Positions 16,274 to 20,372 of a DNA stretch of 22,033 nt are shown piece after piece. Each line of letters begins with the position of its first letter. Position 1 is the stretch's first letter. The stretch covers positions 1 through 22,033 of the IMG/VR virus record IMGVR_UViG_3300007346_000292; one strand, written 5' to 3'. Origin of the DNA: a virus. Under the pieces are notes generated by a model. It made no database searches. It saw only the letters and a program-made list of their open reading frames with translations, and was not told where the DNA came from. Position numbers and translations under genes: made by a program.

Positions 16274-17143
16274 ATGGCCCAAGATAAAGTATATGTAGAT
16301 TCAAATTACCGGCGCTCTAAAAATCAAGCTCGTATTGAGAAAGAAGAAAAAGAACTAGAAGCTTTGATTAATAAATCCTCTGAAGAAGTGGAGGAAGAAA
16401 TTCAAGAAGAAGAGGCGCAAGAACAGCCAAAAGAAGCTGAGTCTGAAGACAAAGAACTAAACGCAGAAGAAAAAACTTTTAAGAAGCGTTATGGTGATCT
16501 TCGTCGTCATATGGCTGAAAAAGAAAAAGAGTGGGAAAAGCGATTTGCTGCACTAGAAAACGCAAAGAAAACTTCTGAGATTGTTCCGCCTAAATCTGAT
16601 GAAGATATTGAAGCTTGGGCTAGAAAGTATCCTGATGTAGCCAGTATTGTACACACAATTGCTGAAAAGAAAGCTAAAGAACTTTTTTCAAAAACAGAAA
16701 GTCGTCTGAGAGAGTTTGATGAAGTTCAGTATGAAGCACAACGTACTAAAGCAGAAACACAAATTCGCAAAGCACATGAGGATTTTGATGAGCTAAGAGC
16801 TTCTGATGAATTCCATAACTGGGCAGAAGAACAACCTAAATGGGTACAAGACGCACTTTATGAAAATTCAGATGATCCAGCTTCTGTAATTCGTGTTATT
16901 GATCTTTATAAGGTAGACAATGGACTTACACCAAGCGCAAAAAAGGCTAAGTCGAAAGATGCTGCAAAGTCTATTCGTACTTCTTCTACCCCAAAAGTAA
17001 ATACAAATAACAATGGAAAGATTTTTAAAGAGTCTCAAATTGCTAAAATGTCTGATAAAGAATTTGAAGCTAACTGGGATGCCATTCAAGCTGCACAAGC
17101 CTCAGGGAATTTTGTGTATGATATGTCTGGTGGAGCACGTTAA
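16274..17143 (+). CDS. Scaffolding protein
   Basis: 289 residues with GGAG about 8-9 nt before the ATG. It is highly charged: residues 18-75 are glutamate/lysine-rich and almost free of hydrophobics, and residues 65-100 (KRYGDLRRHMAEKEKEWEKR) are a coiled coil. A helical middle (DEDIEAWARKYPDVASIVHT to residue ~190) and a conserved-looking acidic/aromatic stretch (FDELRASDEFHNWAEEQPKW) follow, then a basic low-complexity linker and a C-terminal segment (MSDKEFEANWDAIQAAQASG) that probably contacts coat protein. Composition, length, and its place directly before the coat gene are those of a phage scaffold, which guides procapsid assembly and leaves before or during packaging. Confidence 0.85.
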   Translation: MAQDKVYVDSNYRRSKNQARIEKEEKELEALINKSSEEVEEEIQEEEAQEQPKEAESEDKELNAEEKTFKKRYGDLRRHMAEKEKEWEKRFAALENAKKTSEIVPPKSDEDIEAWARKYPDVASIVHTIAEKKAKELFSKTESRLREFDEVQYEAQRTKAETQIRKAHEDFDELRASDEFHNWAEEQPKWVQDALYENSDDPASVIRVIDLYKVDNGLTPSAKKAKSKDAAKSIRTSSTPKVNTNNNGKIFKESQIAKMSDKEFEANWDAIQAAQASGNFVYDMSGGAR

Positions 17144-17157
17144 TTTTAAATTAAACC

Positions 17158-17185
17158 TTGACAATTAAGACTTTTTTAATATAAC
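17158..17185 (+). promoter_or_regulatory. Sigma70-type promoter P3 for capsid genes
   Basis: TTGACA (17158-17163), a 16-bp spacer and TATAAC (17180-17185), just after the scaffold stop. Predicted start is near 17192, giving a ~209-nt leader. It would raise expression of the coat and decoration genes above that of the rest of the module. Confidence 0.65.
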
Positions 17186-17191
17186 TTAGAT

Positions 17192-17400
17192 TGTCTAAGG
17201 ATAATATGTAGGTCAGCCCCTTTATGGACAACCTGACCTACAAAACCAAAGCCTACAGCACAATAAGACTAACCTGAATAAGTATAGGCCCGTTTTAGTA
17301 ATCTCTGGCCGGAGTGACCTAAAACGCACCCTAGAAAGTACAGCCTCTTAGACGTGGTGTTTAGCTTTAACAAAGCCAAATATCATAGGAGGATTATAAA
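17192..17400 (+). ncRNA. Structured 5' leader of the major capsid gene
   Basis: The ~209-nt leader has three inverted repeats. Stem 1 is a perfect 10-bp pair TGTAGGTCAG (17207-17216) / CTGACCTACA (17233-17242) with a 16-nt loop. Stem 2 is CGTTTTAG (17291-17298) / CTAAAACG (17319-17326), enclosing an inner CTC/GAG stem (17303-17305/17312-17314). Stem 3 is GCTTT/AAAGC (17364-17376) just before the ribosome binding site. AGGAGG (17387-17392) stands 8 nt before the capsid ATG, outside the stems. None of the stems is followed by a U tract, so these are not intrinsic terminators. A message-stabilising or translation-enhancing leader is likely; a regulatory RNA is possible. Confidence 0.5.
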
Positions 17401-18474
17401 ATGGCTTTTAATACCGCAAGCGGTTACGGCAACCTTCCTAATGGAAATTTTAGTTCCGTAATCTATTCCAAGAAGGTACAACTTGCCTTCCGTAAATCGA
17501 CCGTTGTTGGTGACATCACTAACTCGGATTATTTTGGTGAAATTGCTGCTCAAGGTGACACAGTTCGTATCATCAAAGAGCCGGAAATTTCCGTAAGCCC
17601 CTACGCACGTGGTACTCAGATTCAAGCACAAGACCTTGATGACGAAGACTTCTCGCTGGTTATCGACAAAGCTAACTATTTTGCTTTCAAAACAGATGAC
17701 ATTGAAGAAGCTCACAGCCACGTTAACTTCATGGACCTTGCAACCAACCGTGCGGCTTACCGCTTGGCTGACCAGCATGACCAAGAAGTTCTGGGCTATC
17801 TGTCTGGTTACAAGCAATCCGCAACTCATGCAAATGCTGACACTGTTAACGACCAAGTTAATGGCACTAAAGCTGTAGACACTGCAGGTTCTGACGAACT
17901 TCTGTCGAGCATGAAGCTTAAGAAGGGTGATTTTGGTAACATCACGACTGCATCTGCTGGTGATCACTCGATCCCTGTTGCTGCACGTCTTCCGGGTGCT
18001 ACTGCTCTTCCGACTGACTATGTTTCTCCGGTGATGCTCATCAACCGTATGGGTCGTCTTCTGGATCAACAGAACGTTGATAAAGCTGGTCGTTGGATTG
18101 TTATTGATCCGGTAATGATGGAAATCCTGCAGGACGAAGACTCGCGCTTCCTGAATGCAGACTTCGGTGATTCGGGTGCTCTCCGTAACGGCCTCGTGCT
18201 GAACAACTGGAACGGCTTCCGTGTTTATGTCTCTAACAACCTGCCTTCGGTTGGTACTGGCGCAGCTACCACTGGTACTGCTAACCAGAACGCTAACTAT
18301 GGTGTGATTGTTGGTGGTCATGATTCCGCTGTTGCTACGGCTGAACAGATCAACAAGACAGAGACGTACCGTGATCCTGACAGCTTCGCAGATATTGTTC
18401 GTGGTATGCACCTCTATGGCCGTAAGATTCTGCGTCCTGAGGCTCTTGTCACTGCAAAATATAACCTCGCTTAA
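17401..18474 (+). CDS. Major capsid (coat) protein
   Basis: 357 residues preceded by an ideal AGGAGG site. The N-terminus has the arm-like NTASGYGNLPNGNFSSVIYS and VQLAFRKSTVVGDITNSDYF. The motif GDTVRIIKEPEISVSPYARG and the stretch LVIDKANYFAFKTDDIEEAH, then MDLATNRAAYRLADQHDQEV, are characteristic of HK97-fold coat proteins of the P22-like/short-tailed phage sort. The C-terminal half has RWIVIDPVMMEILQDEDSRF and a domain ending in YGRKILRPEALVTAKYNLA. It builds the icosahedral shell on the scaffold. GC content and C-ending codons are higher than in the preceding genes, which fits selection for high expression. It has its own promoter and leader. Confidence 0.93.
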   Translation: MAFNTASGYGNLPNGNFSSVIYSKKVQLAFRKSTVVGDITNSDYFGEIAAQGDTVRIIKEPEISVSPYARGTQIQAQDLDDEDFSLVIDKANYFAFKTDDIEEAHSHVNFMDLATNRAAYRLADQHDQEVLGYLSGYKQSATHANADTVNDQVNGTKAVDTAGSDELLSSMKLKKGDFGNITTASAGDHSIPVAARLPGATALPTDYVSPVMLINRMGRLLDQQNVDKAGRWIVIDPVMMEILQDEDSRFLNADFGDSGALRNGLVLNNWNGFRVYVSNNLPSVGTGAATTGTANQNANYGVIVGGHDSAVATAEQINKTETYRDPDSFADIVRGMHLYGRKILRPEALVTAKYNLA

Positions 18475-19492: not shown

Positions 19493-19870
19493 ATGGTCAA
19501 ACTCGTCAACCGCGCTAAGATGTCTACTGCCACTACTGGCACGGGAAGCCCAATCACGCTTGGCTCTGCTGAGAGCGGCTATCAGTCATTCGCTGATGCT
19601 GGCGTGGCTGACGGGGATACCGTGCGTTACGTCATCGAGGACGGTACGGCTTGGGAGATTGGAACAGGCATCTACACGGCGTCTGGAACCACTCTAAGCC
19701 GTACTGTTACGGAAAGCAGCAACTCGGACGCAGCGATTAACCTTTCTGGGTCTGCTGTTGTGTTTGTGGCGGCAACTGCGGCGGATTTAGGCAAGTCGGC
19801 GGATGGCGGCGTGGCTTCGTCTGTTTACACTGCGGTACAATTTATAGACGGAGGTTCAGCAAGTGGCTGA
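19493..19870 (+). CDS. Tail/appendage protein, 125 aa
   Basis: 125 residues from ATG 19493, 12 nt after the previous stop; the upstream sequence AAGGTTTTTTATTC offers an AAGG at about 9-10 nt. The sequence [20 protein letters not shown], then [40 protein letters not shown] and [13 protein letters not shown], is a conserved pattern in phage structural regions. The pattern is known from proteins encoded beside tail fibres, often as a base or connector domain. It is beta-rich and acidic, without hydrophobic membrane segments. From here the sequence is GC-richer than the giant gene, pointing to a separately acquired appendage module. The stop overlaps the next start. Confidence 0.65.
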
Positions 19871-20372
19871 CATTATTCAAATTCGGCGTGATACGGCTGC
19901 AAACTGGACAAGCGAAAACCCGATTTTGGCCCAAGGTGAGATGGGCTATGAAACTGATACGGGCAAACTGAAGTTTGGTGACGGTTCTACGGCTTGGTCC
20001 AGTCTTTCGTATTACTCTGCTGGCACGGCTTTTTTATCTGACACCAACCCTGTCATCACGGCAGGAACCATCACAGAAGATGTCTATGCCCTGAGCGGTA
20101 CAAGCGTTGCCTTGGAGCCTGACAATGGTTCCATCCAAACTCACACGCTGACTGGCAATACCACTTATACTGACGGGTTCTCTGCTGGTCAGGCGATCAC
20201 GTTGATGGTTGATGACGGTACTGCGTACACAATTGACTGGAGCGGGATGAGTGTAACTTGGGTGAACAATGGCGGCTCTGCACCTACGCTGGCGACTTCT
20301 GGCTATACGGTCATTGCGATCTGGAAAGTCAGCACAACGCTCTACGGCGCACTCGTTGGGGACGGTTCCTGA
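19863..20372 (+). CDS. Tail-fibre-type protein with Mtd_N-like N-terminus, 169 aa
   Basis: 169 residues from a GTG at 19863, supported by GGAGG 8 nt upstream and an 8-nt overlap with the previous stop. The N-terminus (residues 1-50) reads [20 protein letters not shown], then [20 protein letters not shown] and AWSSLSY. This is the classic phage fibre-attachment module of the major-tropism-determinant N-terminal (Mtd_N) type: RRdTa..W...NP.La.GE.GyEtDTgk.K.GDG...W..L. Residues 60-169 form a beta-rich domain ([56 protein letters not shown]) seen in other fibre proteins. It is probably part of the receptor-binding apparatus. Confidence 0.78.

Follow-up and report, generated by a model that had tools for sequence, protein, structure and literature searches.

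What does a long structured leader do ahead of the major capsid gene, in a phage genome whose genes nearly touch over much of its length? The locus lies in a virus record of 22,033 bases (IMG/VR record IMGVR_UViG_3300007346_000292), which was analyzed over its whole length and is referred to here as the window. A first-pass annotation had described a promoter followed by an untranslated stretch with three hairpins, and had proposed that this stretch stabilizes or boosts the capsid message or acts as a small RNA.

The leader and its setting in the window

Among the proteins encoded in the window are a terminase large subunit (phrog_979), a portal protein and a tape-measure-like protein, as well as a member of family phrog_13678 and the P22-like capsid protein. 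The latter shares 86.6% identity with its counterpart in Roseobacter phage CRP-13 and 71.1% with the one in Puniceispirillum phage HMO-2011; these identities place the window, as a fragment of such a genome, with the HMO-2011-type podoviruses. The accessible portion of one report describes HMO-2011-type phages as a dominant group with a broad distribution in the ocean (PMC9038755). Three features frame the leader:

16274 to 17143, plus strand: upstream gene, assigned to family phrog_13678, whose function is not known, by a match to it; a putative scaffold gene, by position only
17158 to 17185, plus strand: sigma-70-type promoter, TTGACA-N16-TATAAC; the sole exact match in the window, with the same type in related leaders
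17401 to 18474, plus strand: major capsid protein gene, P22-like coat (phrog_267, E 3e-64; PF25209)

The near-consensus promoter described in the first-pass annotation was borne out: the sequence at 17158-17185 is the only exact match to TTGACA-N15..18-TATAAY in the window, and 100 dinucleotide shuffles yielded none. We examined 91 leaders, comprising the window, 80 metagenome loci (the best 80 of 599 relatives) and 10 phages. In 80 of them the capsid gene is preceded by a TTGACA-like, TATAA-type promoter and, behind it, a structured leader, and several of the 11 leaders lacking such a promoter are from cut contigs or distant phages. From the promoter only, we infer a transcription start near 17192, behind TATAAC, which would give a leader of ~209 nt (17192-17400). 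Taken together with the first 20 nt of the capsid gene (17192-17420), the leader folds better than shuffled sequences (z -2.59, with 2 of 200 equally good).

The leader had also been called unusually long for a genome of this kind. Genes are indeed tightly packed over much of the window, but a longer ORF-poor stretch lies at 881-2723, and the capsid leader is therefore not the sole long gap. This stretch of ~1.8 kb contains TTGACT-N17-TATAAT near 2329-2357 as well as repeated short motifs, and may be home to other control elements.

Conserved fold of the leader and its spread among phages

Parsing fitted 77 of the 91 leaders to a common pattern. Removal of near-duplicates left 56, and the 38 of these with a typical P4 length formed alignment A1 and were used to build covariance model R1. 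The model gave 92 matches, corresponding to 87 leaders once four chance matches on the other strand and one leader (L094) were left out; 80 of the 87 have the promoter, and removal of near-duplicates from those 80 produced a set of 61 leaders. In the window, the fold consists of the following elements:

17207 to 17242, plus strand: P0, a 5' hairpin with an inner helix and an internal loop of CC (17217-17218) opposite ACAAC (17228-17232); from folding and covariation
17249 to 17367, plus strand: the rod (core), with nested helices P1, P2, P2', P3 and P4, described by model R1; from covariation, and the window core alone folds in this way
17264 to 17278, plus strand: P2 5' strand UAAGA, loop strand CUAAC and P2' 5' strand CUGAA, pairing with 17339-17350
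17280 to 17284, plus strand: AAGUA, facing GAAA (17334-17337); conserved in alignment A1
17285 to 17290, plus strand: P3 5' strand UAGG and CC, facing CAC (17327-17329) and CCUA (17330-17333); from the covariation alignment
17291 to 17326, plus strand: P4 hairpin with apical loop UGGCCG (17306-17311); many compensatory pairs
17339 to 17350, plus strand: P2' 3' strand, CC (17344-17345) and P2 3' strand UCUUA; from the covariation alignment

Two of the three hairpins originally described are part of this fold. The perfect 10-bp stem is present as the outer stem of P0 (17207-17216/17233-17242), with a small inner helix and a fold z-score of -4.2, and the 8-bp stem with an inner helix corresponds to P4 (17291-17298/17319-17326), the inner helix being 4 bp. 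Covariation among relatives, which had been put forward as the check on the fold, revealed compensatory changes in both the rod and P0. In a plain MAFFT alignment of the 38 leaders, standard pairs filled 87.2% of cells, compared with 73.7% in shuffles; doubly changed cells numbered 192, compared with 72.1 in shuffles; and sliding the partner by one column reduced pairing to 48% or less. RNAalifold, run without the proposed structure as input, recovered P2', P3 and P4. A tree-preserving test on the 61 leaders ranked proposed pairs in 22 of the top 24 places among 23,005 column pairs, with the top place taken by 17214-17235 in the covarying outer stem of P0 and the second by 17251-17365 in P1, the closing helix of the rod. 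Only four pairs reached E < 0.05 in this phylogeny-aware test. Since its core columns came from a structure-fitted alignment, the MAFFT test on 38 leaders is the fairer one. A swap test of P1 gave z -3.5, falling to z -0.02 once the segment also took in CCUCUU. Within the rod, AAGUA/GAAA may resemble the loop E, or bulged-G (sarcin-ricin), element, whose consensus is AGUA facing GAA; at the sequence level only, these letters are present in most rows of A1.

P0 and P2 have an internal loop in common, with CC on one strand and four bases ending in AC (NYAC) on the other. In P0 this loop, of the CC/ACAAC type, recurs in most of the P0 hairpins listed for related leaders, and a near copy with CAC or CAAC is found at the P3/P4 junction, giving three CC/NYAC loops per marine leader. 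Our search for a named motif matching the CC/NYAC loop found none, and its likeness to the C-loop is that of one asymmetric internal loop to another, at that level alone. A scan of the whole window for CC/NYAC hairpins gave one match, at 1116-1146; shuffles give 1.2, indicating that this match is due to chance.

Rhizobium and Sinorhizobium phages, together with related soil-type contigs, have a more compact version of the leader, in which the rod carries two CC/NYAC loops in opposite orientation and which R1 scores poorly. For 28 soil-type leaders the mean pairing score was 14.5, compared with 5.3 for shuffles, with anchors picked to maximize pairing in both cases. The pairs adjacent to the loops were fully compensated in 23 distinct soil-type leaders (C-G in 17 and U-A in 6; G-C in 17 and A-U in 6; A-U in 17 and G-C in 6). 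Among 80 divergent leaders, 66 passed our thresholds; the other 14 are one cut contig and 13 lower-scoring leaders. Sequence comparison establishes the rod, the 5' hairpin and the loop repeated within them.

We parsed 160 exact core matches from the viral collection and from loci found by capsid comparison. In 158 of these, 107-196 nt separate the match from the start of the capsid gene downstream; one of the remaining two lies at 64 nt from a gene aligned only from capsid residue 126, and the other is on a contig that ends before the gene. A scan of 84,980 genomes of bacteria and archaea for the exact core gave no match. With model R1 the element is recovered from marine Roseobacter and SAR116 phages; of 13 named phage genomes searched in full, 7 have a single copy of the leader. 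The model also matches CRP-9, CRP-207 and CRP-235, matches CRP-212 weakly (E 0.0023), and at E <= 1 picks up 37 of 80 capsid loci from the divergent set, which comprised the best 80 of 154. No R1 match was obtained in CRP-738 or RHph_TM3_14A, nor in the four gammaproteobacterial capsid relatives (Aeromonas, Vibrio and Pseudoalteromonas) with gaps of <30 nt. The leader is likewise absent from Pelagibacter phages HTVC115P and HTVC033P, where the gaps before the capsid gene are 58 and 31 nt. By these comparisons the structured leader is a conserved RNA that reaches well beyond the window. No gene strictly tracks the leader across six genomes, four with it and two without; ORFs of 666 and 138 aa come nearest, but their matches in CRP-3 are partial and weak. 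The genes common to all six are few, the capsid gene and its neighbors among them.

A predicted competing pairing over the ribosome-binding site

The third hairpin, described as a small stem near an unpaired AGGAGG, has to be redrawn. Its arms (17364-17368/17372-17376) belong to a longer alternative hairpin, and the 5' arm is shared with the rod, where it forms the 3' side of the closing helix, so the small stem is not independent. When tried as an element of its own, it showed no notable covarying column pair beyond the shared strand. Nor does AGGAGG stay single-stranded: its partner in the predicted minimum-energy fold is CCUCUU, from 17344 on. Two segments take part:

17344 to 17368, plus strand: switching strand CCUCUU...GUUUAGCUUU, either the 3' side of P2 and P1 or the partner of the Shine-Dalgarno (SD) region; from swap tests and forced folds
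17372 to 17392, plus strand: conserved 3' element AAAGCCAAAUAUC and the SD sequence AGGAGG (17387-17392); from conserved sequence and a duplex with the switching strand

The rod and the SD-hiding helix share bases and are therefore mutually exclusive. In the soil-type leaders the alternative is one long helix, formed by the switching strand and its continuation with the SD sequence and the bases before it. In swap tests, whose statistics ignore the kinship of the leaders in both groups, the own partner beat swapped partners in 20 distinct soil-type leaders with z -5.34 (0 of 10,000 permutations), and the SD region of the marine leaders (n = 61) gave z -2.99 (11 of 10,000). Soil-type decoys gave z -0.33 for the reversed partner and z -0.95 for another rod strand, and marine decoys ranged from z -1.58 to +1.95. 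The soil-type M2 3' strand tested against the M2 5' strand gave z +1.41, that is, no swap signal for the few, near-invariant rod pairs. In 58 of 60 marine leaders, the SD core lies within the best duplex that the switching strand forms. CCUCUU on its own shows no covariation with the SD sequence (z -0.8), since both are conserved. Together with the covariation of the rod, these comparisons demonstrate coevolution of both pairings.

We also folded the 61 leaders with each state forced. The rod and the alternative were close in predicted energy, differing by a mean of 1.3 kcal/mol, and the rod was lower in 25 of 61. With the closing helices of the rod switched off, all scored SD letters were paired in 43 of 61 leaders and the SD sequence was fully open in none. 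For the leader tail alone, SD openness was 0.175, compared with 0.274 when tails were shuffled (lower in 44 of 61) and with a mean of 0.53 for eight other genes of the window. Only a weak alternative duplex (-4.0 kcal/mol) is predicted in CRP-1 and HMO-2011.

Several relatives (loci L009, L021, L048, L052 and L069 among them) have an extra hairpin inserted between the rod and the AAGCCAAAC element, and these retain the alternative pairing only partly. Two further pairings were considered. A pseudoknot between the P4 loop and the 3' element gave z -2.8 for a short segment and z -1.95 for a longer one, and GCGC and GATC loops do not fit it. Pairing of AAGCC with the start-codon region (AUGGCUU) was rejected: AAGCC is retained in leaders with GCA, and the swap signal was weak (z -1.55). 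Codon 2 of the capsid gene is mostly GCU in the 91 relatives, other early alanine codons being mostly GCA, and this bias may reflect a local RNA constraint.

Explanations for the leader and its relation to known RNAs

We consider it reasonably probable, from sequence and modeled folds, that the leader acts in cis on the major capsid gene as a two-state element controlling its translation, and is transcribed from a host-type promoter of its own. Transcription would begin behind TATAAC. The 5' hairpin and the long rod would form first, holding the rod's 3' closing strand off the ribosome-binding site (the ON state). Should the rod open or never form, the closing strand (CCUCUU and the next ~20 nt) would cover the AGGAGG stretch, and capsid translation would drop (the OFF state). 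Capsid synthesis would then be raised by a factor that held the rod or the CC/NYAC loops in place; the loops are the sites most likely to be recognized, whether by a protein of phage or host or by some other ligand. A purely kinetic version, with the rod first and the OFF state later, is possible. We infer that the states interconvert, that translation is affected and that a trigger exists. A conserved two-state capsid leader would mean that tailed phages time shell production at the RNA level, and the leader offers a family that can be modeled and a repeated internal-loop module whose partner can be sought directly.

One possible trigger is autogenous: the product of the capsid gene or of the upstream gene may bind the repeated loops and set capsid translation, a reading we hold tentatively and whose likelihood overlaps with that of the two-state element itself. 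The leaders of ribosomal proteins and T4 gp32 place translation under autogenous control, and as here a structured leader sets the translation of an abundant protein; the comparison with our leader was made through the Rfam scan alone, and its binder is putative. Autogenous control is consistent with the presence of three loops in each marine leader and two in each soil-type leader, and with the inclusion of the capsid gene and its neighbors among the genes common to all six genomes. The loops, however, are features of the open-site fold, and for simple repression the binder would have to block access by another route.

A constitutive stabilizer or booster, in which P0 guards the message at its 5' terminus, the rod holds the site open and nothing is regulated, is rather unlikely. 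Capsid protein is required in large amounts, the promoter is strong, and P0 begins a few nt to ~20 nt behind the -10 box in relatives, all of which would suit it; a stabilizer would, however, need neither conserved CC/NYAC loops nor a coevolving SD-hiding helix. Of the earlier proposal that the leader boosts or stabilizes the capsid message, the role in cis is upheld by the capsid gene downstream of 158 of 160 core matches, and a switch is favored over simple stabilization. We found nothing in support of a separate small RNA, and action of that kind is weakly supported.

A riboswitch-like sensor is a speculative and rather unlikely reading, in which the CC/NYAC modules bind a component of capsid assembly, or copies of the message join at the palindromic P4 loop, steadying the rod and opening the ribosome-binding site. 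If so, shell production would follow assembly state or message level in dominant marine and soil phages.

The palindromic P4 loop raises the prospect of a trans-acting or structural RNA that oligomerizes, by analogy with phi29 pRNA or GOLLD/ROOL, which we judge improbable. The apical tetramer is self-complementary (GGCC, GCGC or GATC) in 42 of 61 leaders. A loop was identified in 59 leaders, and in 56 of these the two central bases are complementary if AGCG counts as a failure, with about 10 parsimony changes. All 59 fit a list of loop patterns, but the list was chosen by the analysts, and GGCA (11 leaders) and GGCG (2) are not palindromic. The palindrome would suit a kissing dimer, and dimerization of the RNA is weakly supported. 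Against an oligomerizing RNA, the element has no separate gene and always lies ahead of the capsid gene. The phi29 packaging RNA is likewise a phage RNA that joins through loops, but it differs in packaging machinery and gene context, and the loops of the capsid leader are at best self-complementary. In place of a phi29-type packaging ATPase, the window phage carries the terminase large subunit and portal. GOLLD and ROOL, in the accessible text of their report, are likewise ornate phage-encoded RNAs with conserved intermolecular contacts and kissing loops, but are ~660 to >800 nt long, often near tRNA islands and not leaders, unlike the ~209-nt capsid leader (PMC12286853); their Rfam models had no match in the window or related loci. 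A DNA-level element (an origin, recombination or packaging site) would account for inverted repeats and palindromes but hardly for G-U pairs, strand-specific CC/NYAC loops and the linkage to promoter, SD sequence and start codon, and can be set aside as very improbable.

The two-state element would, on its sequence and modeled folds, work like a translational riboswitch or a protein-controlled leader, although membership in either class needs a ligand and is not claimed. It shares with translational riboswitches a conserved structured 5' domain, a predicted and coevolving SD-hiding pairing that excludes it, a closing 3' strand that is also the anti-SD strand, and a position directly before the start codon. 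It differs in its repeated loops, control of a virion structural gene, lack of an Rfam match and putative ligand. The cyanophage manA, wcaG and PhotoRC-II RNAs are similarly structured marine-phage RNAs found by covariation and proposed or likely to act in cis; they adjoin metabolic or photosynthesis genes, and the accessible text of their report names no capsid gene (PMC2864571).

The 4227 families of Rfam 15 had no match in the window at the gathering score, and the best match within 17100-17460 at E<=10 was rliD, with 8 bits against 50. A literature search that covered subscription journals thinly found no report of this capsid leader, and the accessible text of two papers on HMO-type phages has no mention of it under promoter, intergenic or RNA-structure terms. 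By comparison with Rfam 15 and the literature covered, the leader appears to be new, carrying a CC/NYAC module that appears undescribed; a 2010 survey also lists an Ocean-VI motif, which is marine only and has no Rfam entry (PMC2864571).

An Rfam scan of 20 related loci likewise gave no leader match, its only matches there being two group I introns outside the leader. These introns (RF00028) lie at or just behind the 3' end of the capsid gene (L003:3088-3314 and L245:2574-2813). On the minus strand of the window, a 342-codon open frame at 17383-18411 runs antisense to the capsid gene and is probably a by-product of codon usage. Further downstream, positions 19863-20372 encode a protein with an Mtd N-terminal domain (PF18454, E 2.4e-19), a domain known from the targets of diversity-generating retroelements.
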